DNA of 64,000 nt. It comes from Desulfobacterales bacterium. GTDB taxonomy: Bacteria > Desulfobacterota > Desulfobacteria > Desulfobacterales > JALSRD01. The stretch lies in assembly GCA_026984935.1 (NCBI GenBank), contig JALSRD010000035.1:143655-207654 (forward strand), read 5' to 3'. Positions 7,474 through 54,382 of the stretch are shown here, piece by piece. Made by a program: the position numbers and the translations under genes. Under the pieces are notes generated by a model. It saw nothing but the letters and a program-made list of their open reading frames with translations, was not told where the DNA came from and did not search any database. Numbering within the stretch: the stretch's first letter is position 1; every line of letters starts with the position of its first letter.

Positions 7474-7660
7474 GTAAAAAGTCGGTTTTGAACAGGTTGC
7501 AAAACTTTTCGGTAAAAAGCGCTGTGCATCGTTTAGCACTAAAATCCCAGTCTGTTTGAGGAGCAAGGCGACGCGTTCCCGGGATTTGCCGCAAGCCGGC
7601 CCAGCTTCCGAAAAGGCTTGCGCAAGCGAACAGCCCGGACTTACTTATTATGAAATCATC
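7474..7660 (+). repeat. Dispersed intergenic repeat, copy 1
   Basis: Shares AAAAAGTCGGTTTTGA, CTTTTCGGTAAAAAGCGCTGTGCAT, TGTTTGAGGAGCAA, CCCGGGATTT and CCGAAAAGGCTT with segments at 26548 and 54211. Confidence 0.85.
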
Positions 7661-7809
7661 AAATGTAACGTAAGGCCGGCGCCGCTTAATTTCAGGTGAT
7701 CTTCGGGGCGGCCTCACGGCCCGTCGATGCCGTCCTGCGGCATCACGCTTGCCAACCTACCGCTTTTATGGCATGATTCGGGCAAACCATCCCCCAAAGG
7801 AGTCTGCCC

Positions 7810-9879
7810 ATGAAAGCGGCACACCTTGTCAGCCGTCGTTTGGCGGTACTTTTCGTGATTTTCTCGCTGGGCGGCCTGCTATCGTCGGCCGGCCGCACTG
7901 CCGCAGCCGAGCTTCCCGTTACCCGCGTGGTGCTTTTCTCAAGCGGCGTGGGCAATTTCATCCACAGCGGCCGCATCACCGGCGATGATGTCGTGACACT
8001 GCATTTCAGCGCCGACCAGATGAACGATGTGCTGAAATCGATGGTGGTCAACGATCTGGACGGCGGCAGTGTGGACGGCATCATCTATCCCTCCAAGGAG
8101 CCGCTGACGCGGGCGTTGCAACGCTTTGCCGTTGACCTGTCCGGCAACCCCCCGCTCGCCGGCCTGCTGAAGCAGATACGCGGGGCAGCCGTGCGTGTCT
8201 GGGCGCCGGATCTGGTCGCGGGCAGAATACTGAGCGTGGAGCGCCGCCTCCAAAAGACAACCGTGGCCGCCGGAACCTCGGAATTTGAGACATTCACGCT
8301 GAACCTGGACACCCGCAACGGTTTCAAGGCAATCCCGCTGGGCGCCATTTCCCGCCTGCAGCTGGATAACGCGAAACTCAACGCCGACTTGAACCGTGCT
8401 CTGGAAATGCTGGCAGGCGCCACAGACCGGACCGGCAAGCCGGTACAGATCCGGTTTCGCGGGCAGGGCCCCCGGCGGGTGCGCATTGCCTATCTCATCG
8501 AAACCCCGGTCTGGAAAACGAGCTATCGCCTGGACATGCGCGACAAGGACTTCTTTATGCAGGGTTGGGCCATCGTGGAAAACAGTTCGGACAGCGACTG
8601 GCACAATGTGCATCTCGTGCTGGTTTCCGGCCGCCCCATCTCCTTTATTCAGGATCTTTACACGCCGCTCTACCGGTCCAGGCCGGTGGTCAGGCCACGG
8701 GACTATGCGGCTCTGAGGCCCCGGCAGTACGCATCGGGCATGCCGGCACCAGATACCCGCATACGCAGTAAGGCGGCCGTTCGCAAGGCGCTGCAACCGG
8801 CGGCCAGGATGGAATACCGCCAGGCCCTTGCAGGCGGTGTCTCCGACAAGTTGGCCGCACCGGCTGAAAAAGAGGTGCCGCCGGCCATGGGCAGCGGCGT
8901 TTCGTCTGCCGTCGACACCGGCACCACCGGCGAACTGTTCTATTTCGCCGTCCAACAGCCGGTGGCCCTGGCACGGCATCAAAGCGCCCTTATCCCCATC
9001 GTCAACCGCCCCATTGCCGCACAGCGCGTATCCGTATACAACCGCGCGGTGCTGCCGCGGCATCCCTTAAACGGGGTCTGGCTGCGCAATAACACCGGCT
9101 TTACGCTGGCCGCGGGACCGGTAACCGTATACGCCCAAGGGACCTATGCCGGCGATGCGCGCCTCGGTAGCCTGGTTCCCGGCGACCGACGGCTGCTGAC
9201 CTACGGTGTCGACCTGGAAGTGCTGGTCGATGCAACCGTGAAAACCGAAACCCGCCGGGCCGTTTTGAAAATCGTAGACGGCATCCTCGAAGAGAAGCAT
9301 CTGAGCGTCTTTCAGTATGCCTACCACATGGAGAACAAATCGCCAAAACCGCGCCGGGTAGTTGTGGAGCACCCTTTCAATGGCCGGCGCAAACTGACGG
9401 CCCCGCAGCATTATGCCGAAAAGAGCGCCCGTTTCTACCGCTTCGAAAAGGCGCTGGCGCCGGGCGAGAAAACAACGCTCACGGTGAGAGAAGAACAGAT
9501 CCGGCTGCAGCGCCTCGGATTGCTGGACATGACCCTGGCGCAGCTGCTGGTCTATTCCTCAAACAGCGAAATTTCACCCGCCGTACGCAAAACTTTCAAA
9601 ACCCTGGCGACGCTCAAGCGCACACTGGTGTCGCTGAAGGCCAAACGAACGGATCAGAACGATCGCCTGCAGGCCATCTCCCGGGACCAGGACCGCCTGC
9701 GCAAGAATATTCGGACGGTGGGGACAGCTTCCGAACTGGGCAGGCGCTATCTGGCAAAGCTGAGCACCCAGGAAGACCGCATCGAGAGCATCCGGGGCAA
9801 AATCGCCGCGCTCGACCGCCAGATCGCCGAGAAGCGAAATGCACTCAAGGCTTACCTTGAAAACCTGAGCGTGGAATAA
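7810..9879 (+). CDS. DUF4139 domain-containing secreted protein
   Basis: Signal peptide, IAYLIETPVWKTSYRLD and FEKALAPGEKTTLTVREEQ; C-terminal coiled coil. Confidence 0.8.
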   Translation: MKAAHLVSRRLAVLFVIFSLGGLLSSAGRTAAAELPVTRVVLFSSGVGNFIHSGRITGDDVVTLHFSADQMNDVLKSMVVNDLDGGSVDGIIYPSKEPLTRALQRFAVDLSGNPPLAGLLKQIRGAAVRVWAPDLVAGRILSVERRLQKTTVAAGTSEFETFTLNLDTRNGFKAIPLGAISRLQLDNAKLNADLNRALEMLAGATDRTGKPVQIRFRGQGPRRVRIAYLIETPVWKTSYRLDMRDKDFFMQGWAIVENSSDSDWHNVHLVLVSGRPISFIQDLYTPLYRSRPVVRPRDYAALRPRQYASGMPAPDTRIRSKAAVRKALQPAARMEYRQALAGGVSDKLAAPAEKEVPPAMGSGVSSAVDTGTTGELFYFAVQQPVALARHQSALIPIVNRPIAAQRVSVYNRAVLPRHPLNGVWLRNNTGFTLAAGPVTVYAQGTYAGDARLGSLVPGDRRLLTYGVDLEVLVDATVKTETRRAVLKIVDGILEEKHLSVFQYAYHMENKSPKPRRVVVEHPFNGRRKLTAPQHYAEKSARFYRFEKALAPGEKTTLTVREEQIRLQRLGLLDMTLAQLLVYSSNSEISPAVRKTFKTLATLKRTLVSLKAKRTDQNDRLQAISRDQDRLRKNIRTVGTASELGRRYLAKLSTQEDRIESIRGKIAALDRQIAEKRNALKAYLENLSVE

Positions 9880-9902
9880 CCCGCAGCAAAAGGCCGGACA
9901 TC

Positions 9903-10649
9903 GTGGACCGCGAAAACACCGTTGCCTATTATTACCAGGTCGCCGAAACCCTGAAAGCGCGCATCGAATCCCAACAGTATCCGCCCGGTGAACTGCTGCC
10001 TTCCGACAGGGACCTTGCCCGCGCCTTTGGCGTCAGCAACATCACCATCCGCAGAGCCATGTCCTTGCTGGTCAGCCAGGGTCTGGTGGTTCGCCGACGC
10101 GGCGTAGGTACGCGTGTCCTGCCACTGGAAGATTCGCGCATCCCGTTGAAAATCACCGGCAACTTCAAAGACTGGGTCGACTCGGCCTTAAGCCGCAGCC
10201 AGAAACTGGCCGTCACCGTTCTCGGCACGGAGACCACGGCCTGCCCGCAGCGCGTGGCCAAGCAGCTGCAGCGTACGCCCGGCAGTGACATCTGGCGCAT
10301 GCAGCGCGTCCGCAGCCTGAAATCGGAGCCCATTTCCTACTATATCAATTACGTTCCGCCGGGCCTGCTGAGGGATGTTGCGCCGATGGATTTTGTCAAA
10401 AGGCGCTTTATCGAAGTTTTTCAGCAAAAGAGCGGCATCGCCATCGTCAGGATCGAACAGCAGGTGGAGGCCACCTGCGCCGATATGGACGTGGCCGGCG
10501 TGCTGGAGGTGGATTTCGGCGCACCGCTTTTCTTCATCACCAACATCTACTCTGACAGCCGCGGTGCACCGGTGGAAGTCACCCACATGTACTTCCGCGG
10601 GGACCGTTACATCTATAAAAACATCACTTCCATCGATGACGCCTCCTGA
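9903..10649 (+). CDS. GntR family transcriptional regulator (UTRA/HutC-type)
   Basis: LKARIESQQYPPGELLPSDRDLARAFGVSNITIRRAMSLLVSQGLVVRRRGVGTRV wHTH followed by a UTRA-like domain. Confidence 0.93.
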   Translation: MDRENTVAYYYQVAETLKARIESQQYPPGELLPSDRDLARAFGVSNITIRRAMSLLVSQGLVVRRRGVGTRVLPLEDSRIPLKITGNFKDWVDSALSRSQKLAVTVLGTETTACPQRVAKQLQRTPGSDIWRMQRVRSLKSEPISYYINYVPPGLLRDVAPMDFVKRRFIEVFQQKSGIAIVRIEQQVEATCADMDVAGVLEVDFGAPLFFITNIYSDSRGAPVEVTHMYFRGDRYIYKNITSIDDAS

Positions 10650-10673
10650 CCACCCGGCGGCGGCCCTTCCCCT

Positions 10674-11966
10674 CTACCCGGACATCATCTGCGGCAATAC
10701 CAACACGACCTGCGGGAAAAGCACCAGCACCACAATCACGAGAATGATCGGGATCAGAAAGGGCAGCAGCGACCGCACCACCTTTTCGAAAGGCATCCGC
10801 GTAATACCCACCAGGACGTAAATCACGTTGCCGAAAGGCGGCGTGATCACGCCCACGGAAAGCGAGATCACCATCAGCACCCCGAAAAACAGCGGATCGA
10901 TCCCCAGCACCTTGATCATCGGCACCATCACCGGCGTAAAGATCAGCACCGATTCGATGACCGACATGAAACAGCCCACCACCAGAAAAAAGAGCGTGAT
11001 CAGCAGCAGCAGAATGGTGGTATCGTTGGACAGGTGCATCACCAGTCCTGCCAGGGTAAGGGGAATTTGCAGACGCACCAGCAGCCAGCCATACAAAACG
11101 GCGATGGAAATGATAAACAGTACGATGGCGGTAAACTCGATGGTCGTATAGAAAACTTCCCGCAGATCCTGGAGAGAAATGTCCCGGTAGATCAAGAGCC
11201 CCAGCACCATGGCATAGGCACTGGCCACCACTCCGGACTCGGTGGGGGTGAAGATGCCCGACCAGATGCCGCCGACGATGATGACCGGCGTCATCAGCGA
11301 CAGCAGTGCCCGTCGGGACAGCCGCAGCACCTCTTTCAGCGGCAGCCGCGGCTGAATCGGCATGGAGATGCGAAAAGAAAGCAGGTAGGTGCTGAGCATC
11401 AGGCTGCCACCCAGCAGGATTCCGGGAATCACGCCGGCGATAAAAAGCGCCCCCACGCTGACGTCTCCCAGCCAGCCGTAAATCACCATGGCCACGCTGG
11501 GCGGGATGATGGGGCCGATCACCGAAGATGCGCCGGTGATGCCCGTGCTGTAGTCCAGGGGATAGCCCTGGTCCTGCATGGCCCGGATTTCGAGGCTGCC
11601 GAGACCGGCCGCATCGGCCACGGCCGTGCCGGACATACCGGCAAAGATCATGCTGGCCAGTACATTGACGTGCCCCAAACCGCCGCGCAGGTGCCCCACC
11701 AGTCCATTGGCGAAATCAAAGATGCGCGGCGTCACGCTGCCCTTGTTCATCACGTTGGCCGCCAGAATGAAAAAGGGAATCGCCAAAATGGGAAAGCTGT
11801 TGACACCGTGCATCATTTTGAGTGGGAAAAGGCTCAGGGGTATACTGATAAAGCTGTTTTCGACCCACAACACCGCCATGCAAGTCAGCCCGATGGCAAC
11901 GGCAACCGGCACGCCGATAATGAAAAAGAAAAGCAGCAACCCGATAAACAGGATCAGCATATCCAT
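10674..11966 (-). CDS. dctM: TRAP transporter large permease
   Basis: Multi-TM DctM family; NSFPILAIPFFILAANVMNKG, GITGASSVIGPIIPPSV, ESVLIFTPVMVPM. Confidence 0.95.
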   Translation of the reverse strand: MDMLILFIGLLLFFFIIGVPVAVAIGLTCMAVLWVENSFISIPLSLFPLKMMHGVNSFPILAIPFFILAANVMNKGSVTPRIFDFANGLVGHLRGGLGHVNVLASMIFAGMSGTAVADAAGLGSLEIRAMQDQGYPLDYSTGITGASSVIGPIIPPSVAMVIYGWLGDVSVGALFIAGVIPGILLGGSLMLSTYLLSFRISMPIQPRLPLKEVLRLSRRALLSLMTPVIIVGGIWSGIFTPTESGVVASAYAMVLGLLIYRDISLQDLREVFYTTIEFTAIVLFIISIAVLYGWLLVRLQIPLTLAGLVMHLSNDTTILLLLITLFFLVVGCFMSVIESVLIFTPVMVPMIKVLGIDPLFFGVLMVISLSVGVITPPFGNVIYVLVGITRMPFEKVVRSLLPFLIPIILVIVVLVLFPQVVLVLPQMMSG

Positions 11967-11970
11967 GGAG

Positions 11971-12456
11971 CTATTGTTTCTCCACTAAGCACTCGCGTCG
12001 GCCGGCCAGGGAACGAACCTGCTTCCAGGTGTTTTGCAGCTGGAAGACGAGCATGCCGCTGACGCCCACAAACAGGCCCAGATAAAAGTAGCTGATACTG
12101 ATCTCAAGAGCCGTGGTTTTGGAAGGATAACTGATTTTCATGATGAAAAGCGTGCCGATCCACACGCAGGCAAGGAAGAAAAGGCACAGCACGTCGGTTA
12201 TCAGGCGCAGGATGTGTTCGGCACGGCCCGCAAGGCGATCCACGACCACGTTGATGACAATATGCGCGCCCCGCCGCCAGGCGCTGGCCGCCCCCAGAAA
12301 AACACTCCATACGCACAGCAGCCGTGAGGACTCTTCGGCCCAGGTGGTCGGCAGGCTCAGCACGTTGCGGCTGAATACTTCAATCAGGATGCACAGCATC
12401 ATGCCGCAGAAGCATAGCAGTGCCCCGACATCGTAGGCGCGCAGGATATATTTCAT
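11971..12456 (-). CDS. dctQ: TRAP transporter small permease
   Basis: Four TM segments, RNVLSLPTTWAEESSRLLCVWSVFLGAASAWRRGAHI; start taken at 12456. Confidence 0.9.
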   Translation of the reverse strand: MKYILRAYDVGALLCFCGMMLCILIEVFSRNVLSLPTTWAEESSRLLCVWSVFLGAASAWRRGAHIVINVVVDRLAGRAEHILRLITDVLCLFFLACVWIGTLFIMKISYPSKTTALEISISYFYLGLFVGVSGMLVFQLQNTWKQVRSLAGRRECLVEKQ

Positions 12457-12563
12457 TACGCTCCCTTGCGATTGCGCTTTTCGCCATTGGGACAAAGGCG
12501 ACCGGCCGGGCCAAAGAACCCCAATGGGCAAATCAACCGCCGGGATCCAATGCCGCAAAAGCG

Positions 12564-12590
12564 GCCGGCCGGATGTGCTTTCCGGCCGGC
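12564..12590 (-). promoter_or_regulatory. Intercistronic hairpin between dctP and dctQ
   Basis: GCCGGCCGGA-tgtgctt-TCCGGCCGGC, perfect 10-bp stem. Confidence 0.6.
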
Positions 12591-12598
12591 ATGTTCGG

Positions 12599-13585
12599 CT
12601 ACTTCAATTTTGAGACCCGCTCGACTTCCTCAGCCACACCGGGGGCCAGCTTGCTGACCGCCCGCTGGATGGCCGGCATGGCCGCCTGGCGGATGGCGGG
12701 CACATCCGGTTTGACGAAGATCATGCCGTGCTTCTTCAACTCGCGCGCGTAAAAGGCATCCTTTTCATCTTCCACCCTGGAGCCGTAGGCCCGGGCTTCG
12801 GCAACGGCCTGGCGGATCAGTGCCTGGTCCTTTGCAGCGAGCTTGTCGAACCAGACCTTGCTGGCCACCCAGTGCCAGGGAAAATAGACGTGGTGCGTCA
12901 GGATGATATACTTCTGCACTTCCCACAATTTCCGCGAATACGGCGACACCAGCGAGTTTTCGTGGGCTTCCACCTGCCCCGTTTTCATGGCCAGGTAGAT
13001 CTGGGGCGCCGGAATGACCGTCGGCAGGGCGCCCAGCTGTTTCCAGACGTCCACCCAGATGGGGATGGCCGGCAGCCGCATCTTGAGCCCTTTGATATCC
13101 TTGGGCTCCACGATCTTGCGGTTGGCGGTCATATGCCGCGGCGCACGCTTCTGGGGACCGAAATCAATAATGCCCCCCTTTGCAGCGGCCAATTTGCGGA
13201 TTTTGTCCCCCATTGGCCCCTTCAGGTAAGCCACGATACTCTTCCAGGACGGCATATAGAAGGGAATCGTGATGGGATCGTACTGCTTGGCGAACATGGT
13301 GCGAAAAATCCCGCCGGTCAGCGCCATCTGGGTCTGGCCGATTTTCATCAGTTCCAGCACGGCCTTTTCCTTGCCCAGCTGACCGCTCATGAAGATCTTC
13401 ACCTTGATGCGCCCAGCAGATTTCTTTTCGACGATCTGTTTGAACTGCTTGATGGCCGCTTCCTCGGATCCGCCGGGCTTCATGGTGCAGTTGACATCGA
13501 TACTGATGTCGGCCGCCGGGGCGTAGCCGGGCATCAGAAAAAGCATCAAAACCGCTGCCGCCAGTAGAACCATTTTTCTTCTCAT
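12599..13585 (-). CDS. dctP: TRAP transporter solute-binding protein
   Basis: Signal peptide; GKEKAVLELMKIGQTQMALTGG, LKMRLPAIPIWVDVWKQLGALPTVIPAPQIYLAMKTGQVEAHEN. Confidence 0.94.
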   Translation of the reverse strand: MRRKMVLLAAAVLMLFLMPGYAPAADISIDVNCTMKPGGSEEAAIKQFKQIVEKKSAGRIKVKIFMSGQLGKEKAVLELMKIGQTQMALTGGIFRTMFAKQYDPITIPFYMPSWKSIVAYLKGPMGDKIRKLAAAKGGIIDFGPQKRAPRHMTANRKIVEPKDIKGLKMRLPAIPIWVDVWKQLGALPTVIPAPQIYLAMKTGQVEAHENSLVSPYSRKLWEVQKYIILTHHVYFPWHWVASKVWFDKLAAKDQALIRQAVAEARAYGSRVEDEKDAFYARELKKHGMIFVKPDVPAIRQAAMPAIQRAVSKLAPGVAEEVERVSKLK

Positions 13586-13631
13586 GGGAACCTCCTTTTG
13601 GTTTCTGTTGCACACGGGTTGGCAGACGTTG

Positions 13632-14804
13632 CTAAATTACTTTCTCTTCCCTGAATTTGGCAATCTCTTTCTCATCGAAGCCTGTTTCGATCAGAATTTC
13701 ACGGGTGTGCTGGCCCAGCTGCGGTGACGGCCGCCGGAGCCTTGCAGGGTTTTTGGTCATTTTGACGGCAAATCCCGGCATCTTGACCTTTTCCGTCGGT
13801 TGCTCGGATATCAGGAGCATTTCCTGATGCCGCACCTGGGGGTCGTCGAAAACTTCTTTCAGGTTGTTGATGGGGCCGCAGGGGACGCCCTCGCGGTTGA
13901 GCACCTCAATCCAGTAGGCCCGGGTATGTCGGCCGATGCGCCCCTGCACGATGCGGTTGATGGCCGCCCGGTTGCGGCAGCGCCTCTCATTGGTGGCAAA
14001 GCGCGGCTCTTTCATCACTTCCCCTATTTGGAGCACACGGCACAGATTCCGCCATGTTTTTTCAGTAGAGGGTGCAATCGCCAGCGGACCGTCAGCCGCA
14101 TGGTAAACCCCGTAAGGCGCGACGACCATGTGGTCGTTGCCGGTCCGCGGCGGCAACTGACCGGTAGCGAAAAAAGCGCCCGATGCGAAGGTAAACATGC
14201 TGATCAGGCTATCCACCATGGCCACATGGACCTCTTCGCCGCGGCCGCTGATCTCCCGGTTGCGCAGGGCCGCCAGGATACCGAAGGCAGCGTAAAGGCC
14301 GGCAATGGTATCCGATATGGGAATCCCTGCACGCAACGGCTCCATGTCTGCACTGCCGTTTAAGCTCATAAAGCCGGATACCGCCTGGGCGATGAAATCG
14401 AAAGCCGGTCGGCGGCAGTAGGGCCCGGTCTTGCCGAAACCCGAAACCGCCGCGTAAATCAGACGCGGGTTGATTTCGGCAAGCTTCGCGTAGCCCAGCC
14501 CCAGGCGCTCCATGACCCCCGGCCGGAAGTTTTCCACCAGAATGTCCACAGACTTGACCACGCGCCGGATGATGCTCTTGCCGCCCCTGGATTTCAGGTT
14601 GACGGTGATGCTGCGCTTGTTGCGGTTCAAATTGACGAAGTAGGGATTTTCCCCTTCAGCCACGATGCCGGTCACCCGGGAAGGGTCGCCGTCAAGTGAC
14701 TCCACCTTGATCACATCGGCACCGAAGTCGGCCAGCAGCATACTGCAAAACGGCCCGGAAACCACGCGCGTCATGTCCAGCACCTTTATTCCGGAAAGGG
14801 GCAT
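13632..14804 (-). CDS. CaiB/BaiF family (class III) CoA-transferase
   Basis: LSGIKVLDMTRVVSGPFCSMLLADFGADVIKVE, LNRNKRSITVNLKS, SGFGKTGPY. Confidence 0.95.
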   Translation of the reverse strand: MPLSGIKVLDMTRVVSGPFCSMLLADFGADVIKVESLDGDPSRVTGIVAEGENPYFVNLNRNKRSITVNLKSRGGKSIIRRVVKSVDILVENFRPGVMERLGLGYAKLAEINPRLIYAAVSGFGKTGPYCRRPAFDFIAQAVSGFMSLNGSADMEPLRAGIPISDTIAGLYAAFGILAALRNREISGRGEEVHVAMVDSLISMFTFASGAFFATGQLPPRTGNDHMVVAPYGVYHAADGPLAIAPSTEKTWRNLCRVLQIGEVMKEPRFATNERRCRNRAAINRIVQGRIGRHTRAYWIEVLNREGVPCGPINNLKEVFDDPQVRHQEMLLISEQPTEKVKMPGFAVKMTKNPARLRRPSPQLGQHTREILIETGFDEKEIAKFREEKVI

Positions 14805-14834
14805 TACCACCTCGTTGTTTGGGGTTTTCAGATA

Positions 14835-15782
14835 TCAATCGCCGTCATGGTGTCCACCCACCCCGCAAATGCGGGCCGCCAGGCGCGGATCACGCGGGCC
14901 GCTCTTCATGACCTGTCCCGGAAGGGTGAACCCCAGAATCTCCTCCAGCCGGCGGGCGGCGGCGATAAGCTTTTCCAGGTCCACGCCCGTGTCTATACCC
15001 ATCTCTGACAGCATGAAAACCACGTCGGCGGTGGCCAGGTTGCCGGCTGCCCGGGGCACGTAGGGGCAGCCGCCGATGCCCCCCAGGGACGTGTCGAAAC
15101 AGTCGGCCCCGGCCTGCAGCGCGGCCAGCAGGTTGGCCATGGCGATACCCCGGTTGTTGTGAAAATGCAGAATCAGACGTGTATCCGGAAAATGTTCCCG
15201 AAAGGTGCTCACGCGCTTCTCCACGCGTATGGGGTCGGCCATCCCGGTGGTGTCCGCCAGGATCACCGACTTGGCGCCGCGGCGCACATACTGCTCCACG
15301 ATGGCGAAAACATCCGCCTCGGGCACGTCCCCCTGAAAGGGGCAGCCGAAGGAGACGGCCACCGACCCGATGACGCGCACCCCTGCGGCCAGAGCGGTTT
15401 CGAAAACGTTGTCCAGCCCGGCTATGGATTCGTCGATGCTGCGCCGGATGTTCTCCCGGTTATGGGCCTCGCTGGCGGAAATCACCACGACGATCTCGTC
15501 GGTGCCGGCGGCCACGGCATCCTGTGCTCCGCGCAGGTTGGGCACCAGCGCGGTGTAAACGGCCTTGTCCCTGGGCACGCCGGCCATCACCGCGGCGGCA
15601 TCCCGCAATTGGGGCACGGCCCTGGGGCTTACAAAGGATGTGGCCTCCACTTGGCGGATGCCGGCGGCCACCAGAGCGGCGATGATTTCCAGTTTCTGTG
15701 CCGTGGGCACGAAGCGCTCCAGGGACTGCAACCCGTCCCGCAGCGCCACCTCCCGCAGCATCACTTTCTCCGGCAGTTTCAT
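14835..15782 (-). CDS. Hydroxymethylglutaryl-CoA lyase-like enzyme (HMGL-like family)
   Basis: LREVALRDGLQSLERFVPT, EATSFVSPRAVPQL, LILHFHNNRGIAMANLLAALQAGADCFDTSLGGIGGCPYVPRAAGNLATADVV. Confidence 0.93.
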   Translation of the reverse strand: MKLPEKVMLREVALRDGLQSLERFVPTAQKLEIIAALVAAGIRQVEATSFVSPRAVPQLRDAAAVMAGVPRDKAVYTALVPNLRGAQDAVAAGTDEIVVVISASEAHNRENIRRSIDESIAGLDNVFETALAAGVRVIGSVAVSFGCPFQGDVPEADVFAIVEQYVRRGAKSVILADTTGMADPIRVEKRVSTFREHFPDTRLILHFHNNRGIAMANLLAALQAGADCFDTSLGGIGGCPYVPRAAGNLATADVVFMLSEMGIDTGVDLEKLIAAARRLEEILGFTLPGQVMKSGPRDPRLAARICGVGGHHDGD

Positions 15783-15825
15783 AGCTGTCCTTTTGACCTG
15801 CATGTATGCGGTACGCCAATGTTCA

Positions 15826-17685
15826 TCATGCCACCGTGACGGATTCCGGTCGCATCCTGGTGAAGCACCACAGGCCTGCCCCCGCCGCGACACCGGCCGC
15901 CGTCAGGGGCGGTGACGGCAGCAGGATCAGGATTCCGGCTGCCGCCAGCAGCAATCGCTGGCCCATAACCAGGCGCCGGTTGAAATACCCCATGAAGCCC
16001 GCCGACAGCAGGGTCAGGGCCGCGGCCGCGCGCGCCACGCCCAGCACCACCTGCCACCAGGAGCCGATAAGCACCAGACCCGGGTAGTAAGCGAACAAAA
16101 ACGGCAGCAGGAAGGCCGCGAAACTCAGCTTCAACCCGAAGCGGGCCGTCTCCACCCAGCTGGCTTCGGCCATGCCGGCGGCAATGAAAATGGCGCCGCA
16201 CACCGGCGGCGTCACGGCCGACAGAATGGCCATGTAAAAAACAAACAGGTGCGCCGCCATGGGCGGCACCCCCAGTTCGATGAGCACCGGTCCGCCCACC
16301 ACCACGGCCACGATGTAGGCGGCCGTGGTGGGCACTTCCATGCCCAGCAGAATGCTGGCCAGTCCCGTCAGCAGCAGCGCCGCGAACAGGCTGTTCTGGC
16401 TGAAGGCCAGGATGCCGGCGCTGACCTTGACGCCCAGACCCGTAAAGGCGATAATGGCGATAATCACCTGGGCGCTGGCGCAGATGCTGGCGATCAGGGC
16501 CGCCTGCCGGGCGCCGTTTAACACCGCCTTTTCCAGCTTTCCCGGCACGGTGCGCACCTCGAATTTCAATTCTTCATCCAGCAGCGCCAGAGGCAGCGTC
16601 GCCATCACGGCCCAAAAGGCGGCATACTGGGGCGTATAGCCGCGAAACAGCCAGAAGGTCAGCATGCCGAAAGGCACCAGGAAAAACCCGCTGACTTTCA
16701 GGGTGTCGCTCCAGCTGGGGATATCCCCCGGCTGCATGCGGCCGTAACCGCTGCGCAGAGCATAAAAGTGAATGCCCAGACCCACGGTGAAAAAATACAG
16801 CAGGGCCGGCAACAACGCGCTCAGGGCAATGGTCAGATAGGGCGTCTGGATCAGTTCGGCCATGATAAAGGCGCCGGCACCCATGATGGGTGGCATGATC
16901 TGTCCACCGGTGCTGGCCACCGCCTCCACCGCCGCCGCCAGGGCGGGCGCATATCCCAGCCGCTTCATCATGGGGATGGTGAAAGCCCCGGTGGAGGCCA
17001 CGTTGGCGCTGGCACTGCCCGACACCGACCCGAACAGGGCGCTGGAAACCGTGGCCACCTTGGCAGGACCGCCGGTGTAGCGCCCCGCCAGGCGCAGCGA
17101 GATCCTCAGGAAACCGGTGCCACCGCCGGTGTGCACGATAAAAGCGCCCAGAAAGACGAAGATGGCGATGATGTTGGCGCTCACGCCCAGCAGCTGACCC
17201 CAGATGCCGCCGGTGGTCAGGTACAGCATGCTTGACAAGGTGGCCAGGCTGTATGGCGGATGGCCGAAACGACCCGGAATGAGGTGCCCGAAAACCGCGT
17301 ACAGCAAAAACAAAAGCGCAATGACGGGCAGCGCCGGGCGCACCATGCGCCGGGCCGCCTCCAGTACGATAAGTGTCAGCAAGAGGCCGGCCCAGACCTG
17401 AAAAGGCCCCGTGGCCGTGCCGTACTGGTCGATAATGGCATGGTATTGAAAAAAAACATAAAGCGACAGGCCCACTCCCACCAGGCACAGCAGCACGTCC
17501 CACAGCCGGCGCCGGGCCGTACGCACAGCGCCGCCGCCCAGGAAAATCAGGATCAGCGCCAGGCTCAGATGAATGGAGCGCTCGCGCATGTTGGGCATAA
17601 AGGCGTACACCGGCAGCAGGACCTGGTATACGGCAAAAATCACCGAAACCGTCAGCACGAACCTTCTGCCGGTCGCTGCAGCCAA
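15826..17685 (-). CDS. TRAP transporter fused permease (TAXI-type 4TM/12TM)
   Basis: Long multi-TM protein; GSVSGSASANVASTGAFTIPMMKRLGY, STGGQIMPPIMGAGAFIMAE. Confidence 0.94.
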   Translation of the reverse strand: MAAATGRRFVLTVSVIFAVYQVLLPVYAFMPNMRERSIHLSLALILIFLGGGAVRTARRRLWDVLLCLVGVGLSLYVFFQYHAIIDQYGTATGPFQVWAGLLLTLIVLEAARRMVRPALPVIALLFLLYAVFGHLIPGRFGHPPYSLATLSSMLYLTTGGIWGQLLGVSANIIAIFVFLGAFIVHTGGGTGFLRISLRLAGRYTGGPAKVATVSSALFGSVSGSASANVASTGAFTIPMMKRLGYAPALAAAVEAVASTGGQIMPPIMGAGAFIMAELIQTPYLTIALSALLPALLYFFTVGLGIHFYALRSGYGRMQPGDIPSWSDTLKVSGFFLVPFGMLTFWLFRGYTPQYAAFWAVMATLPLALLDEELKFEVRTVPGKLEKAVLNGARQAALIASICASAQVIIAIIAFTGLGVKVSAGILAFSQNSLFAALLLTGLASILLGMEVPTTAAYIVAVVVGGPVLIELGVPPMAAHLFVFYMAILSAVTPPVCGAIFIAAGMAEASWVETARFGLKLSFAAFLLPFLFAYYPGLVLIGSWWQVVLGVARAAAALTLLSAGFMGYFNRRLVMGQRLLLAAAGILILLPSPPLTAAGVAAGAGLWCFTRMRPESVTVA

Positions 17686-17732
17686 TTTGACATCCTCCGA
17701 TCATGCTCTCCAAGACAGGCACCCTGCTTCAG

Positions 17733-26460: not shown

Positions 26461-26547
26461 GACTTCTCCTCTCCGCTGCATGTGCCCTGTTGGCACGCCC
26501 GTAACTTGGGCAGTGCACGACTCCTTCGACAAAAACCTTGACAGACC

Positions 26548-26738
26548 CCTAAAAAGGCGGTTTCGGGCAGATTCCAAGGCTTTTCGTCGAAAAGCGCTGC
26601 GCAGGGTTGGTTTGGTATTAAAAATCCCAAATTGTTTGAGGAGAAAAGCGACGCCTTTCCCGGGATTTAGCCAAACGGCGCCCAACTTCCGAAAAGGCTT
26701 TTCGCCAGCGGGAAGCCCTGACTTTTTAGGAAATCATC
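26548..26738 (+). repeat. Dispersed intergenic repeat, copy 2
   Basis: Homologous to 7474-7660 and 54211-54382; ends CCTAAAAAGGC ... GACTTTTTAGG form terminal inverted repeats. Confidence 0.85.
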
Positions 26739-26746
26739 GACCTTCC

Positions 26747-44688: not shown

Positions 44689-44759
44689 GTCGGTGAAAAT
44701 CCGAACGACGGGCGGTTACCGCAGATTTGAATTCTGAAACACAAACACTGGGGAGTTTC

Positions 44760-45929: not shown

Positions 45930-45971
45930 CGCCGCAAGCGCCCTTTCCAACAACAACCGGAGTATCATAAA

Positions 45972-47426
45972 ATGTCTTTCGCGAAACTCAAAGAGAGCGG
46001 TGCAGGGATCGAAGATATTGACCTGTCCCTGCCCTACAAGGTAGCCGACCTTTCGCTGGCGGATTTTGGCATCCGCGAAATGGAACTATCGCAAAAAGAA
46101 ATGCCGGGCCTGATGGCTGTCCGAAAAAAGTACGGCCCACGCAAGCCGCTCAAGGGGAAGAAAATTATGGGCAGCCTGCACATGACCATCCAGACCGCCA
46201 TGCTCATCGAAACCCTCAAGGAACTGGGCGCCGATATCCGCTGGGCCACGTGCAACATTTTTTCCACCCAGGACCACGCGGCCGCCGCCGTGGCCCGAAA
46301 AGGACTGGCCGCCGTGTTCGCCTGGAAGGAGGAAACCCTGGACGAATTCTGGTGGTGCACCGAACAGGCGCTGACCTGGCCGGACGGCAGCGGGCCCGAC
46401 CTGATCGTGGATGACGGCGGCGACGCCACCCTTTTCGTCCACCAGGGGGTACGGGTCGAACGGGACCCCGACCTGCTGGAAAAAACCTACGACAGTCCGG
46501 ACATGCGCTGCCTGATGGCACGCCTGAAGCTGAGCTACCAGCGCGACCCTAAACAATGGACGCGCATTGCCGCCGCCATTCGCGGCGTGTCCGAGGAAAC
46601 CACCACCGGCGTGCACCGCCTGTACCACCTGGCGCGCCAGGGGGAACTGCTCTTTCCGGCTTTCAACGTCAATGACTCCGTGACCAAATCCAAATTCGAC
46701 AACCTCTACGGCTGCCGTGAATCCCTGGCCGACGGCATCAAACGGGCCACCGACGTCATGATCGCCGGCAAAGTCGTGGTGGTCTGCGGGTACGGTGACG
46801 TTGGCAAGGGGTGCGCTCGTTCCATGCGCGGCTTCGGCGCCCGGGTGATCGTCACCGAAATCGATCCCATCTGCGCGCTGCAGGCGGCCATGGAGGGCTA
46901 TGAAGTCATGACCATGGAGGACGCCGCGCCGCTGGGGGATATTTTCGTGACCGCCACCGGGAATTATCACGTCATCACCGGCCGGCACATGGAGCGGATG
47001 AAAGACGAATCGATCCTGTGCAACATCGGGCATTTCGATAACGAAATCGAAATGGCCTATCTTGAGGAAACCGCGGAGTGCAGAAAGACGTCCATCAAGC
47101 CGCAGGTGGACAAGTGGACGCTCAAATCCGGCAATTCGATTGTCGTACTGGCCGAAGGGCGTCTGGTGAACCTGGGCTGTGCCACGGGGCACCCCAGTTT
47201 TGTCATGAGCAACAGCTTTACCAACCAGTGCCTGGCGCAGATGGAGCTGGCCGGCGGCAACTATGAAAAGAAAGTCTACACCCTGCCGAAAAAGCTCGAC
47301 GAGGAAGTCGCCCGGCTGCATCTGGACCGCCTGGGGGTCAAGCTCACCCGGCTGACGCAGGAACAGGCGGATTACATCGGCGTGCCCGTGGAAGGGCCGT
47401 TCAAGCCGGATCAGTACCGCTACTAA
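45972..47426 (+). CDS. ahcY: Adenosylhomocysteinase
   Basis: [83 protein letters not shown]-terminal KPDQYRY. Confidence 0.97.
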
Positions 47427-47555
47427 AACGATTGCTTGGATTCTTTGGGTTTGTTGGGTTGGACGGCGGCGCGGAGTGCCGAGAGTGCTTCCGGCATCCG
47501 GATACCCGACACCTAAATCACCGACACACGATCACCAACCGTCTCGATCCGCCCC

Positions 47556-48806
47556 ATGAAAACATCCCACCGGATCTACTTTCAAAACGCCGCGCACATG
47601 CGGCCCCTAGACGACCGGAGCGTCGATCTGGTGGTCACCTCGCCGCCTTACCCCATGATCGCCATGTGGGACGAGGTTTTCTGTTCCCAGGATGCCGCCA
47701 TCGGCAGGCTGCTCAAAGGCGGTGACGGCATGGCGGCCTTCGAACGCATGCACCGGCGGCTGGACAGGGTGTGGGACGAGCTGCGGCGGGTCGTCAAACC
47801 CGGCGGGATCGTGTGCATCAACATCGGCGATGCCACACGCACGCTGAAAGAAAATTTCCGGCTGTATCCAAACCACGCCCGCACGCTGCAGTACCTGCAG
47901 CAGCTGGGTTTCCATGCACTGCCGGATATCTTATGGCGCAAGCAGACCAACGCACCCAACAAGTTCATGGGCTCGGGCATGCTGCCGGCGGGGGCTTACG
48001 TCACCCTCGAGCACGAATACATCCTCGTTTTGCGCAAGGGCGGCAAACGGGTCTTTCAGACCGCCGCCCAGCAACAGAACCGCCGCGAAAGCGCCTTTTT
48101 CTGGGAAGAGCGCAACGCCTGGTTCTCCGACGTCTGGTTCGACCTCAAGGGATCGCGCCAGGCACTGGGCCGGCCGGAAGTGCGTGCGCGCAGCGGCGCA
48201 TTCCCCTTCGAGCTGGCCTACCGCCTGATCTGCATGTACTCGGTGAAAGGGGATTTGGTGCTGGACCCCTTTGCCGGTACCGGCACCACCCTGGCCGCCG
48301 CCATGGCCGGCGCCCGAAACAGTATCGGTTTTGAAATCGACCCGGGGCTGGCCGGTGAAGCCACCGCCCTGCTCAGCGCCACGGGGGATTTTGCCAACGC
48401 CCGTATTCACGCCCGGCTGGCCCGGCACATGGATTTTTGTACAGCCCGCGCGCAGGCCGCAAAGCCGTTCAAGCACACCAACGTCCATTACGGCTTCCCC
48501 GTCATCACGGCCCAGGAAAAACAGCTTCTGCTCAACGACCTGCAGACCGTCGTAGCGTGCGGCAGCAACGCATTCGAGGCAACCTACGCGCTAGCGCCCC
48601 AGGCCCGCTTTTGCCAAAGCGGCGATGCCCCGGGCCCGCAGGCTGTTTCCGCGCATGCACCGGTGCCGGGCTCCTGCAGTCCCCGGCTGTCCGAACCGCG
48701 GGGCACGTCCACCTGTCAGATGCCGCTGTTTTCAGAGCCCGCCAAAAGCGCCTTGGCTGTCAGGCCGCCGGCAGAGGCCGGGGATTATCACTCGGCAAAA
48801 CCATAG
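47556..48806 (+). CDS. Site-specific DNA methyltransferase (beta-class amino-methyltransferase, probable N4-cytosine type)
   Basis: Motif IV SVDLVVTSPPYPM precedes motif I DPFAGTGTTLAAAMAGARNSIGFEID; LEHEYILVLRKGG. Confidence 0.88.
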   Translation: MKTSHRIYFQNAAHMRPLDDRSVDLVVTSPPYPMIAMWDEVFCSQDAAIGRLLKGGDGMAAFERMHRRLDRVWDELRRVVKPGGIVCINIGDATRTLKENFRLYPNHARTLQYLQQLGFHALPDILWRKQTNAPNKFMGSGMLPAGAYVTLEHEYILVLRKGGKRVFQTAAQQQNRRESAFFWEERNAWFSDVWFDLKGSRQALGRPEVRARSGAFPFELAYRLICMYSVKGDLVLDPFAGTGTTLAAAMAGARNSIGFEIDPGLAGEATALLSATGDFANARIHARLARHMDFCTARAQAAKPFKHTNVHYGFPVITAQEKQLLLNDLQTVVACGSNAFEATYALAPQARFCQSGDAPGPQAVSAHAPVPGSCSPRLSEPRGTSTCQMPLFSEPAKSALAVRPPAEAGDYHSAKP

Positions 48807-49084
48807 TGGTACATCTCATAGGCCGTATTGCCGCCGAGCAGGGCGTCGATCTCCTTTTGCATCTCCTGCCGGGTCTTGCTCAACAGCCATTTTTCCCAGT
48901 GCTCCGAGGACTGCCAGGTGCTGATGACCAGGAACAGATCCGGCTGATCGAGGCTTTTCAGCGTCTCGCCGGAAATGTAGCCGGCCTGCTGGGTGGCATG
49001 GGCGCGCATTTTTCTGAAAAGCGGGATCATCTGCTTGGCTTTGCTCGGCGGCACGCTGCGCTTGATGAGGATTTTGACTGCCAT
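48788..49084 (-). CDS. Antibiotic biosynthesis monooxygenase (ABM)-domain protein
   Basis: Small dimeric alpha/beta-type protein: SGETLKSLDQPDLFLVISTWQSSEHWEKWLLSKTRQ. Confidence 0.75.
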   Translation of the reverse strand: MAVKILIKRSVPPSKAKQMIPLFRKMRAHATQQAGYISGETLKSLDQPDLFLVISTWQSSEHWEKWLLSKTRQEMQKEIDALLGGNTAYEMYHYGFAE

Positions 49085-49138
49085 GTGAAGCTCCTTCCAT
49101 GGTATGCAGTTTTATTGGAGTTTTGTCAGCACCACAAA

Positions 49139-49936
49139 TCAGGAGTTGCCCGTTAAATAGCCCTTCAGCTTCGACAACAGTGGTTTCCTGATTTTGACTT
49201 TCAGGTAAAGATCGCCGGGCGGTCCCTGGCCTCTTCCGGCGGCACCCATGCCGGCCAGGCGGATCTGCTGGCCGTCCCGGATGCCCGCCGGGATCTGGAC
49301 CACGAGTTTTTTCCCACGTTTGCGGACAAAGTAGGCATAGGCGCCGCCCTGCCGTGCATGTTGCATACTGATGTGAATAACGTCCTGAACATCCGCACCT
49401 CTCTGGGGGATGCGCACGCCGCTCACCTTTTCCAGCAGATAGCGTGAAAATCGGCCCAGATGCCGATGGCTACCCGGCGACGGCTGCCGCGGCTTGCCGG
49501 CAAAGGGGCCGGAAAAGATAAACCCGCCGGCGAAAAAGCCCGGCCGCCGGGCCCCAAACGGCTGATGATCATGGCCGTAAAATTCCTTGAAAATGTCATC
49601 GAAGCCCCGGAAGCCGAAGCTCTTGGCCATTTCCTCGAAAACGTGTTGAATGTCCGATCCGCTGAAGATATCCTGCTCGCTGTAGCTTTTACGGAACCGG
49701 CTGTAGGCCGTAGATCCGTATTGCCGCCGCAGGGCGTCGTATCGGCGGCGTTTGGCCGGATCGGACAGCACGGCATAGGCTTCGTTGAGCACCTTCATCT
49801 GCTCGGCCGCCGCAGGGTTGTCCCGGTTGCGGTCGGGATGATATTGAAAGGCCCGGTGGCGATAGGCTTCCTTTATGGTCCGCACATCAGCCTGTACGTC
49901 GATCCCTAAAACCTTATAGTAGTCCGTGTTTCCCAT
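49139..49936 (-). CDS. DnaJ-domain co-chaperone (CbpA-like)
   Basis: DYYKVLGIDVQADVRTIKEAYRHRAFQYHPDRNRDNPAAAEQMKVLNEAYAVLSDPAKRRRYD; truncated DnaJ C-terminal region. Confidence 0.9.
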   Translation of the reverse strand: MGNTDYYKVLGIDVQADVRTIKEAYRHRAFQYHPDRNRDNPAAAEQMKVLNEAYAVLSDPAKRRRYDALRRQYGSTAYSRFRKSYSEQDIFSGSDIQHVFEEMAKSFGFRGFDDIFKEFYGHDHQPFGARRPGFFAGGFIFSGPFAGKPRQPSPGSHRHLGRFSRYLLEKVSGVRIPQRGADVQDVIHISMQHARQGGAYAYFVRKRGKKLVVQIPAGIRDGQQIRLAGMGAAGRGQGPPGDLYLKVKIRKPLLSKLKGYLTGNS

Positions 49937-49987
49937 GGCCCGTCCACTCATCGACGAAACGGATTGCCCTTTTCGTCGACAAGGCGC

Positions 49988-50893
49988 CTATCCGCTTTCT
50001 TTGTATCGAGCGTAAACCCGGCAGGCCGCTTTGTAACCCAGGCTGCAGGCCTTTTTCGCATCTTGCAGCGCCAGCTTACGCCTGCCGCGCTTAAAGTAGA
50101 TATGTCCCCGATTGTAGTAGGCCCATCCGTTGGCCGGTTTCAACTGGATAGACCGATTCAGATACCGCAGGCTTTCATCAAGTGCACCCCGCTGCATGGC
50201 CAGCCACCCCAGGTTGTCGTAGGCTTCACTGTAGGCGGGATTCAGTTTGACCGCCATGGCGAAATCGCCGGCAGCTTCCGCGTACTGTTTTTTTTTGATG
50301 TACGTGCGGCCTCTCCAGAAATGGGCCGATGCACTTCCGGGGTCCTGTTGCACGGCGCTGCTGAAAACCTGCAGCGCCTTGTCGAACTGCCCGTTTTTAT
50401 AAAGCTGAAAACCTTTGCGAATGTATGCATCCGACTGCTGCCCCGGTTTGTGGGCAGCCGCGGTGCGCTGCAAGGGGGTATGGGACGCCGCAGGGCGCTG
50501 TTTCGCGACGGCCGTTCGCAGTGCCGGACCCGTTTTCGCCGGCCTGGAAGTAAAAAACGCACCCATGCCACCCGCCAGGTAAAACAGCGCCACGACAAAA
50601 GCTGCAATCACCGCTGCCAACATTCCCGGTGCCAGAAAATCCCTTTTCCCGCTTTGAGCCGGCGGGGAAAAGGCCCTAAAAGGTGTGACGGGCCGGCTTT
50701 TGCCAGTGGAATCATCCGTTGCATCCACCGCCGCTGCATGTGCCGGCTTTCTGGTGGCTGCGACCACGCCGGTTTTCCGGTTCAAAGACAGTTCACTGCC
50801 GCAGTTGCGGCAGATGCTCCGGGCCACCGGTTTGATGAACCTCTCGTCGTCGATGCGATAAACGGTCTGGCAAACGGGGCAGGCAAACTTCAT
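49988..50893 (-). CDS. Zinc-ribbon + TM + TPR-repeat protein
   Basis: MKFACPVCQTVYRID...CRNCGSEL zinc finger; TPR units LYKNGQFDKALQVFSSAVQQDPGSASAHFWRGRTYIKKKQYAEAAGDFAMAVKLNPAYSEAYDNLGWL. Confidence 0.82.
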   Translation of the reverse strand: MKFACPVCQTVYRIDDERFIKPVARSICRNCGSELSLNRKTGVVAATRKPAHAAAVDATDDSTGKSRPVTPFRAFSPPAQSGKRDFLAPGMLAAVIAAFVVALFYLAGGMGAFFTSRPAKTGPALRTAVAKQRPAASHTPLQRTAAAHKPGQQSDAYIRKGFQLYKNGQFDKALQVFSSAVQQDPGSASAHFWRGRTYIKKKQYAEAAGDFAMAVKLNPAYSEAYDNLGWLAMQRGALDESLRYLNRSIQLKPANGWAYYNRGHIYFKRGRRKLALQDAKKACSLGYKAACRVYARYKESG

Positions 50894-51034
50894 GTTTCGC
50901 TATTTCCCAATTAATTACAGCGCATGCGTGCAACACGCATTTTATCTAACATGCACCGGCACGGCGCGCAATCGGAATTGTCGAACCGTTTCCCGACCGC
51001 TCCCTCTTTCCGGCGCAGTATCGTGTCAGCGGCC

Positions 51035-51937
51035 CTACGACGTCTGATCGACCCGGATGCGGCTGGAGACGCAGGCATGGCAGGACCCCGACCGCGCTCT
51101 GGCCGCATCGGTGAGCGACAGGACACCGATGACCTGTGCCGGGTCTCGGCGATGCACAAACAGGCGGTGTACGTCCGAAAAGATCATCCGCTGAATGGCC
51201 CCGGAAAGCGGCTCGTCCACATCACAGGACTGCACCGGTGAGGCCATGGCCGCGGCAGCCCGCGTACCGGGATCCATGCCGCGCATATACGCCAGCACGA
51301 GATCGCTTTTGGAAAGCACCCCCACCGGGAGATCCGCACGGTTGCGGATCAGAACGGCACCAAAACGATAGGCCGACAGCCCCTCCATCACTTCCACCAG
51401 GCTCTGGGTGTCACCGTGGGACACCACCGAGGGCGTCATGACTTCCCGCACGCTGATCGCCCGCCGCATCTGATCCTCGTCACGTTCGGGCCGTCGCTGA
51501 AAAACGCTCATCTCACAGTTGCGGCAGAACCGGTAAAGCAGCCCCACAATGTCCGGGTATGCCAGCACACCGGTCACCGGTTCAGAATCACCCGGGCGCA
51601 CATAGAGGCGGTGGACGCGGGTGCTGTACATGGTATCGAGCGCAGACTCCAGATAGTCGTCCGGGCGGCAGAAAATCGGCGGCCCGACCATGACGGACGA
51701 CAGCGGCGTCGAAATCGGCAAATCCGCGTAGTAAGCGCCCATGAGATCGGTCTTTGAAACCACCCCTAGGGGGCTTCCGGCCGCATCGGTGACCAAAACC
51801 GCGTTGATTTTGAATTTGATGCACTGGCGGATGCACTGCTCCAGGGAGGCCTCCTGCGGCAGCCGCACCACCTGGCGCCGCATGGCCGCACTGACTTTCA
51901 GACCGCTTAGCACGTTGCGTTTTCCCGGAATCGACAT
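51035..51937 (-). CDS. CBS-domain protein (four CBS motifs)
   Basis: Repeated INAVLVTDAAGSPLGVVSKTDLM, RFGAVLIRNRADLPVGVLSKSDLV, HRLFVHRRDPAQVIGVLSLTD. Confidence 0.88.
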   Translation of the reverse strand: MSIPGKRNVLSGLKVSAAMRRQVVRLPQEASLEQCIRQCIKFKINAVLVTDAAGSPLGVVSKTDLMGAYYADLPISTPLSSVMVGPPIFCRPDDYLESALDTMYSTRVHRLYVRPGDSEPVTGVLAYPDIVGLLYRFCRNCEMSVFQRRPERDEDQMRRAISVREVMTPSVVSHGDTQSLVEVMEGLSAYRFGAVLIRNRADLPVGVLSKSDLVLAYMRGMDPGTRAAAAMASPVQSCDVDEPLSGAIQRMIFSDVHRLFVHRRDPAQVIGVLSLTDAARARSGSCHACVSSRIRVDQTS

Positions 51938-51945
51938 GCCGCCCC

Positions 51946-52434
51946 CTACGTCCGGTCCGGATCACCCCGGGACAGGTCTTTGAAAAAGAACGTAAAGACA
52001 TCCGAAATATAAATCATACCCACAATGCGCTGATCCTCCAGTACGGGTATTCTGCGGACATGTTTTTTGATCATGACATCCAGCACCATCATCAGGTGGG
52101 TATCCGGCCGCACCGTGACCAGGTCTGTGCTCATGATGTCGCCCACCTGAATGTTGCGCGCCTTTTTAAACGCGGTCTCCAGCAGACCGCCCAGTTCGAT
52201 GTCTTCCATCTCACCCCATATGTGCACGTGCTTGGGGCGCATGAAAAGCAGGATGTCGTACATGGAGAGCATACCCCGCAGGTGGCCGTCGTCATCGGTC
52301 ACCATCATTCCGAAAATGCGCTTACCCTCCTTGCGGCTCGCGCGCCGGAAAAGATTGACAGCTTCGGCGATCGTATCGCGGGGGGAAAGGGTGTGATAGT
52401 GGGTATCCATCACATCCCGGGCTGTGATTCCCAT
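51946..52434 (-). CDS. CBS-domain pair protein
   Basis: MGITARDVMDTHYHTLSPRDTIAEAVNLFRRA..., VGDIMSTDLVTVRPDTHLMMVLDVMIKKHVRRIPVLEDQRIVGMIYISDV. Confidence 0.92.
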   Translation of the reverse strand: MGITARDVMDTHYHTLSPRDTIAEAVNLFRRASRKEGKRIFGMMVTDDDGHLRGMLSMYDILLFMRPKHVHIWGEMEDIELGGLLETAFKKARNIQVGDIMSTDLVTVRPDTHLMMVLDVMIKKHVRRIPVLEDQRIVGMIYISDVFTFFFKDLSRGDPDRT

Positions 52435-52627
52435 GTATGCTCCTTTCCTTCCAGAGGGTCTGAAAACCAGCGAAAGGCCCACTGTGTCCTGTTACTTATA
52501 AAACTTAGCCGCCGATTTTGCAACCTCCGGACACCTGGGAAGTATTTTACTTTTTTTCGGGACCGGCGCTCGAAGCGGCCCGCAAGGGACGTTAAGCACC
52601 GAAAAGTCCTTCCTTGCAAGACAGGCG

Positions 52628-52647
52628 TGTTGGTTCCGGAACCAACA
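52628..52647. promoter_or_regulatory. 20-bp perfect palindrome TGTTGGTTCCGGAACCAACA in a divergent intergenic region
   Basis: Seen directly; TCCGGAAC recurs at 52648-52655 immediately downstream. Confidence 0.65.
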
Positions 52648-52694
52648 TCCGGAACATCGCCGCGCACCGTCTCTTGCACGGGTTTACGAGATAT

Positions 52695-52724
52695 TTGACA
52701 TCCGGCAGGTTTTTCAATATAGAT
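52695..52724 (+). promoter_or_regulatory. Candidate sigma70 promoter for the PilZ-domain gene
   Basis: TTGACA - 17 nt - TATAGAT. Confidence 0.45.
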
Positions 52725-52872
52725 TTCTGAACTGAGTCCCTGTCGATCGTTTTTGCGTAGAAGCTCTTGAACGACGGATACAAAAGGCAGGCGTGCCTTG
52801 TCACTGCGGCGCCTTCACGCGAGATAAGGGATACCTTACGGCCCGGCGCGCGGTGGGAAAGGATGGGACACA

Positions 52873-53280
52873 TTGGAGGAAAGCGAACAAGGCCTACGGG
52901 AGCAGCTGATTGCCGCCATCGACGCAATGTCCGCGGATGAGCAGCGCATTCTCTTGCAGAAACTCGGGGAGCAGCCTCCGCGGGAAAGGCGCCGTCATCC
53001 CCGCAAGCCATACTTCACCGATGTGAAATATGCTGGCGGCAGCCACATCTACCAGGATCTTGTCAAAAACATCAGCCTGGGCGGCGTACTGATCGAAACC
53101 CGCCGGCCCCGCGCAGATCTTTCCATAGGGCAGGAAATCACATTGTCAGTCCCCTTTTCCAGGCATAAAAATTACATGCGTATCATCGGGGAAATCGTCA
53201 GGATCAGCCCGCATGAAATCGGGATCAAGTTTAAAAAGGTGCTCAGGTATCCGGATGATCAACCCGCACCGGCCGGATAA
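52873..53280 (+). CDS. PilZ-domain protein (c-di-GMP effector)
   Basis: RERRRHPRKPYFTDVKY (RxxxR) and NISLGGVLIET (D/NxSxxG); TTG start proposed. Confidence 0.82.
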   Translation: MEESEQGLREQLIAAIDAMSADEQRILLQKLGEQPPRERRRHPRKPYFTDVKYAGGSHIYQDLVKNISLGGVLIETRRPRADLSIGQEITLSVPFSRHKNYMRIIGEIVRISPHEIGIKFKKVLRYPDDQPAPAG

Positions 53281-53506
53281 GCAGGTCTACCTGACCTGCA
53301 CGCGGCGCAAGGGCCGTCCCAGAAAGCACGTTGCCGTGTGTCGCCGCTGCCGCTGGAAAAACAGCTGCCGTACTTTTCTTAACTACCGCCAGCCTGAATT
53401 GCCTTTCGGGTTGCGGGCCGGCGGCTTTCCGCTTTCGACAGCTGAAACCGGCACGGCACGGCGGAAGAACTGCATTGTAAACGCTACCCGAAACAGCCGG
53501 CTGTGA
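53255..53506 (+). CDS. Small Cys/Arg-rich protein overlapping the PilZ gene end
   Basis: MINPHRPDKQVYLTCTRRKGRPRKHVAVCRRCRWKNSCRTFLNYRQPELPF; CxxC...C metal-binding-like pattern. Confidence 0.4.
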   Translation: MINPHRPDKQVYLTCTRRKGRPRKHVAVCRRCRWKNSCRTFLNYRQPELPFGLRAGGFPLSTAETGTARRKNCIVNATRNSRL

Positions 53507-53531
53507 GTCAATCGATTTTGCAGCTGGCCGT

Positions 53532-54176
53532 TCAGGGCATCTTTTTGACCGGACGGAAAGCGATGTTCTCATGCCGTACGCTGGCCCCTGTCCGGATCAT
53601 CCCCGAAACATCCTGTCCGCCGGCCTTCCAGGCCGCAATCCACAAATCGACGATTTCATCGACGGCTGCCGTGTAGCGGTGCTGTATGTCACGGTGGTCT
53701 AGTTTGCCGCCCATGGAGCGGCGGTACCGGCCGACAAGATACTGAACGCGCATTTTCAGGTCCGGCATCTTGGAGTATCCCGGATACCGCACTGTCCTGG
53801 GTATATAGGCTCCGGTGGAATAAAGCGATCCCGGAAAGATCGTTTCCGCGGCAAAACAGGCCAGCACGCCGAACCGCTTGGCGGTCTGATAGGCGTTCAT
53901 GCGCGGGCCTTTCAAATCATTAACCAGTGCGTTGTAAACTTCCGTCAGTTCGTAGGGATCAATGCGCTCCCGGTTCCAGCGGTCAGCGAAAGACATGCCA
54001 TACTGCACGGTCTGCCGGTGCTGCTGGAGATAAGCTTTCAAAGCCGGCGGACAGAACCGGACCGCATCTCCAAGCATGCTGGCACGTATGTCGTGGTTAA
54101 ACGCAGAGCCAGTCGGAACCCATCCAAGCATCATAAGTCCCAGCAGCAGGAAAAACAGCGTTTCTTTTTTCGGCAT
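53532..54176 (-). CDS. Secreted hypothetical protein
   Basis: Signal peptide FFLLLGLMMLGWVPTGSAF; 214 aa; H/D-rich (NHDIR, ADRWNRE, LDHRDIQHRY) but no family confidently recognised. Confidence 0.6.
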   Translation of the reverse strand: MPKKETLFFLLLGLMMLGWVPTGSAFNHDIRASMLGDAVRFCPPALKAYLQQHRQTVQYGMSFADRWNRERIDPYELTEVYNALVNDLKGPRMNAYQTAKRFGVLACFAAETIFPGSLYSTGAYIPRTVRYPGYSKMPDLKMRVQYLVGRYRRSMGGKLDHRDIQHRYTAAVDEIVDLWIAAWKAGGQDVSGMIRTGASVRHENIAFRPVKKMP

Positions 54177-54210
54177 GATCGGTCCCTCCTATAAAGTTTG
54201 ACAGGCGCGC

Positions 54211-54382
54211 AAAAAGTCGGTTTTGAGCGGATTTCAAGACTTTTCGGTAAAAAGCGCTGTGCATAGCCGGGCGTTGAAAAACCCAAGCTGTTTGAGGAGC
54301 AAAGCGACAACGTTGCCCGGATTTGGCCAAACGGCGCACAGCACCCGAAAAGGCTTGCGAAGCGGGAAGTCCGGACTTTTTA
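54211..54382 (+). repeat. Dispersed intergenic repeat, copy 3
   Basis: AAAAAGTCGGTTTTGAGCGG...TGTTTGAGGAGCAAAGCGAC...CCGAAAAGGCTTGCGAAGCGGGAAGTCCGGACTTTTT; terminal inverted repeats. Confidence 0.85.

Follow-up and report, generated by a model that had tools for sequence, protein, structure and literature searches.

The 64,000-nucleotide stretch of Desulfobacterales DNA analysed here (the window) carries three full-length copies of a MITE, each lying between genes; these copies, their neighbours (from Pfam) and the features that mark their ends are as follows.

7465..7660, plus strand: MITE copy 1, full length with a decayed 5' end (profile match and alignment), between panC (6411-7310, plus strand) and a DUF4139-like gene (7810-9879, plus strand)
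26534..26539, plus strand: left target-site duplication of copy 2, AACCTT, 5/6 identical to 26739-26744
26540..26738, plus strand: MITE copy 2, full length (BLASTN and profile), flanked by two minus-strand genes, one rubrerythrin-like and one for a methyltransferase
26540..26558, plus strand: left terminal inverted repeat of copy 2, GACAGACCCCTAAAAAGGC (pattern search)
26720..26738, minus strand: right terminal inverted repeat of copy 2, GATGATTTCCTAAAAAGTC (pattern search)
26739..26744, plus strand: right target-site duplication of copy 2, GACCTT
54194..54199, plus strand: left target-site duplication of copy 3, AAGTTT, identical to 54391-54396
54200..54390, plus strand: MITE copy 3, full length (sequence and profile), directly upstream of an unannotated gene (53532-54176, minus strand) and with a dynamin-like gene as its other neighbour
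54391..54396, plus strand: right target-site duplication of copy 3, AAGTTT

We find that the three segments, which the original prediction had grouped together, are homologous over their whole length and form one family, far beyond chance (BLASTN; 41 profile copies). Their true ends lie ~10 bp beyond the limits first drawn for them (7474-7660, 26548-26738 and 54211-54382). The inverted-repeat pattern matches four times in the window against 0.5 expected; copy 1, which has a decayed 5' end, is without a clear target duplication. A search in and around copy 2 gave no promoter-like site, and terminator-like sites there are at chance level, so we claim no effect of this copy on its neighbour genes. 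Elsewhere in the window, positions 60340-60432 of the minus strand hold a c-di-GMP-I (GEMM) riboswitch (42.2 bits).

The host assembly is a 3.89-Mb draft in 112 contigs, in which BLASTN with copy 2 as the query finds 40 places, 33 of them with E <= 4.9e-12, and an iterated profile search recovers at least 41 distinct full-length copies. These measure 177-203 bp, with a unit of ~193 bp that is too short to encode a transposase, and their mean pairwise identity is 0.71 (range 0.58-0.88, 41 copies). They are dispersed at about one per 95 kb genome-wide, and the density of one per 20 kb given earlier holds for the window only. Copies lie in both orientations on the contigs, and the common strand that had been remarked on means little for a near-palindrome. 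The family is mostly intergenic, but not strictly so, since 3 of 35 copies tested fall within a long open frame.

Similarity in a flank-inclusive alignment ends on the left at GACAGAC(T)CGTAAAAAGTCGG and on the right at CCGGACTTTTTACGAAATCATC, and the terminal inverted repeat, GAYRRNYTCGTAAAAAGTC, is present at both ends over ~19 bp rather than the ~11 bp proposed at first. The element as a whole forms an imperfect palindrome, its left half aligning over the full length with the reverse complement of its right half (score 74 versus 32.5 +/- 6.6 shuffled). A looser inverted-repeat pattern matches 182 times in the host, compared with 70 for the reversed control. The host also contains deletion derivatives, one of 81 bp with the perfect duplication ATCGTT/ATCGTT, and a smallest one of 58 bp (L168:1965-2022) that is hardly more than two inverted repeats, flanked by the perfect duplication AAAATT/AAAATT. 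In the genome of one congener and in 38 others from the order, BLASTN finds no match to the MITE body, which is therefore specific to the host lineage at that sensitivity; a search of plasmids likewise gave no MITE match. A second host MITE family of ~120 bp (L166:278-399, L167:236-355) has another body between the same inverted repeats.

The inverted repeat itself is found well outside the host. An exact scan for GATGAYNTCGTAAAAAGTC returns at least 117 stretches, and among the matches listed nearly all are in Deltaproteobacteria/Desulfobacterota assemblies, with the inverted partner mostly 100-260 bp away and peaks near 133 and 152 bp. Allowing up to one mismatch, the repeat is present in 90 of 146 genomes of the host's order, where a reversed control gives almost zero, and some of these genomes have more than 200 inverted-repeat ends, with a maximum of 317. 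Between the common inverted repeats lie other elements of 100-260 bp, the bodies of which differ in sequence and length. Those of ~133 bp (L225:2316-2448, L043:1832-1964, L048, L088) often contain GTCATTCC..GGAATCCAG, a common proteobacterial module that occurs in 24 of 165 elements, 16 of these exactly 133 bp long, and is ~40 times denser in the elements than in the surrounding DNA. Viral contigs yield 13 inverted-repeat matches, none of them in a clear long pair.

The target duplications of the host copies are 6 bp long and decayed, and in the sister elements they are sharp. The left and right 6-bp flanks of a host copy agree at 3.46 of 6 positions on average (41 copies), compared with 2.61 +/- 0.15 after random re-pairing (maximum 3.07 in 300). 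In 57 sister elements from GTDB contigs the 6-bp flank match is 0.746 versus 0.510 +/- 0.020, and flanks of 3-5 or 8-12 bp show nothing comparable; 27 of the 57 have an exact 6-bp duplication, and the target consensus is AANNTT. The spacer orthologous to that of copy 2 in a genome of the same genus (G001) is ~30 bp long and lacks the element, compared with ~320 bp in the host, and is too diverged to give a base-exact empty site.

The search for an autonomous partner covered the DDE_Tnp_1 loci of ten genomes, all from the order and rich in these ends. The insertion sequence at L225:417-2309 has the ends GACAGCTTCGTAAAAAGTC and (reverse complement) GACACGCTGGTAAAAAGTC, lies between two copies of AACCTT, and codes for a 577-aa transposase with DUF772 and DDE_Tnp_1_6 domains. 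One of the 133-bp MITEs (2316-2448) abuts it, beginning right after the right duplication and closing with another AACCTT. Of 390 genomes of the order, 46 encode a homologue of this transposase, and one distant homologue (37% identity) was found on a Microvirga plasmid in the plasmid search. These partner insertion sequences are ~1.9 kb long, with transposases of 530-600 aa. Among 30 inspected transposase loci, which include L249, the L225 element again, 24 have the inverted repeat at both ends with up to three mismatches (L225 and 23 further loci) and span 1.88-2.09 kb; an exact 6-bp duplication flanks 11 and a 7-bp one flanks 3.

The architecture of DUF772 plus DDE_Tnp_1_6 is typical of IS1182. 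The best NCBIfam model for nine partner proteins is likewise that of the IS1182 family (NF033551), with scores of 142-174 bits that stay below its curated cut-off of 270, and we accordingly call the partner IS1182-like without filing it as a member. The host assembly, a draft from which an insertion sequence could be missing through gaps or collapse, yields no homologue of the L225 transposase and no DDE_Tnp_1_6 match, so the partner is deduced from relatives. Apart from its inverted repeats, the MITE does not detectably resemble any of the insertion sequences sampled, and is thus not a simple internal deletion of one of them. Two other candidates were set aside. A RAYT (Y1 transposase) partner has one PF01797 match in the host, and the ends and duplications do not fit its mechanism. 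Inverted repeats in other genomes also enclose stretches of 0.8-3.3 kb; these were rejected as autonomous elements, since their recognisable open frames are ordinary genes (PHP phosphoesterase, purine nucleoside phosphorylase, NadA, MFS and others), and we read these stretches as chance pairs of MITEs.

Taken together, the repeats very likely represent an ancient ~193-bp MITE family that was mobilised in trans by an IS1182-like transposase and is now orphaned. The proposal of a non-autonomous, MITE-like element finds support in the inverted repeats, the 6-bp duplications, the many dispersed copies and the absence from the congener's orthologous spacer, and it gains further backing from an autonomous insertion sequence with equal ends and duplication length in related genomes. 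An IS1182-like transposase would once have been present in an ancestor of the host, where it would have bound the MITE inverted repeats in trans, cut out or copied the MITE, and inserted it at AANNTT sites via a 6-bp staggered cut; its gene would later have been lost, leaving the copies to drift. An old burst followed by transposase loss is the simplest reading of ~71% identity and decayed duplications, and with the transposase gene apparently lost and the copies diverged, the family is probably now immobile in the host genome.

An alternative is that a different, unsampled transposase, sharing the inverted repeat by chance, mobilised the family. This would agree with a MITE body that resembles none of the sampled insertion sequences, and several genomes with more than 100 inverted-repeat ends (G020, G096) are not among the 46 with an L225-transposase homologue; however, the inverted repeat, the 6-bp duplication and the AANNTT-type target all coincide with those of the IS1182-like elements, which makes two unrelated transposases unlikely, and we rate this alternative as improbable. 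It is scarcely plausible that an ERIC- or REP-like palindromic repeat spread here through gene conversion or recombination instead of transposition. The full-length imperfect palindrome and the mostly intergenic, divergent copies would suit such a repeat, but target-site duplications are detected in the host and are far clearer in the sister elements, for which exact duplications refute this origin, and elements of other bodies and lengths lie between identical inverted repeats.

The original prediction had also allowed for a structured RNA family, a cis-regulatory or small RNA that spread or was kept since its transcript forms a hairpin, and this we consider very unlikely. The MITE consensus does form a long hairpin (-64.6 kcal/mol), 82.2% of the cells of its consensus structure are paired (81.2% in shuffles), and covariation is 0.165 versus 0.150 shuffled, a value reached by 2 of 500 shuffles. 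A long hairpin is nonetheless expected from a palindrome, and the inherited DNA palindrome explains the pairing; the covariation excess is slight, and because related sequences often exceed shuffles, relatedness alone could give it. Rfam shows no match overlapping or close to the elements, the fold of copy 2 does not surpass those of its dinucleotide shuffles (z -0.62), and RNAalifold finds almost no consensus fold, with five pairs only at -1.8 kcal/mol. Target duplications and diverse bodies between common inverted repeats are signs of transposition and argue against an RNA.

Geobacter uraniireducens belongs to the same broad group as the host. Its Chunjie MITE, of 178-235 bp, with 38 copies plus partial ones that are mostly intergenic (PMC10969869), is comparable to the family described here in size, copy number and intergenic preference, a likeness drawn from its description. 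The Correia, ERIC and QMITE elements (PMC10969869) are similar in being non-coding and palindromic, with inverted repeats, dozens of copies, decayed duplications and truncated derivatives, but differ in their hosts and in having different or unknown parent transposases, a distinction again drawn from descriptions. The Thiomargarita hupL MITE has a 19-bp inverted repeat and a 10-bp direct repeat (PMC4853749), and was rejected as a member of the same family since the direct repeat here is 6 bp. On the transposase side, IS1272, an IS1182-family member, reportedly replaces inverted repeats and makes no duplication (PMC5678879), whereas the partner described here duplicates 6(-7) bp at its AANNTT-type targets. 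A search of a limited literature collection found no paper describing the inverted repeat GAYRRNYTCGTAAAAAGTC, and this is apparently a new, undescribed MITE family of a known kind, with a probable transposase identified in relatives.

A wider proposal, on which we are evenly divided, is that these elements make up a Desulfobacterota MITE superfamily of order- to phylum-wide extent, in which a single transposase end-specificity, GATGRNYTCGTAAAAAGTC, with 6-bp AANNTT duplications, would have been retained as bodies were repeatedly replaced, including by capture of the GTCATTCC..GGAATCCAG palindrome module, giving ~100 or more copies per genome, often without a detectable transposase. This would put a name to a widespread, seemingly undescribed superfamily together with its likely transposase, the piece usually missing for bacterial MITEs, and one transposase serving many unrelated bodies would offer a clean system for studying how MITEs arise and survive past their parents. 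Annotators could also have these repeats masked. In metagenome assemblies of sulfate reducers and their kin they often lie at contig ends: many inverted-repeat matches are within ~150 bp of a contig end (among the matches listed, L044, L054, L065, L073 and L093), suggesting that such repeats break metagenome assemblies.
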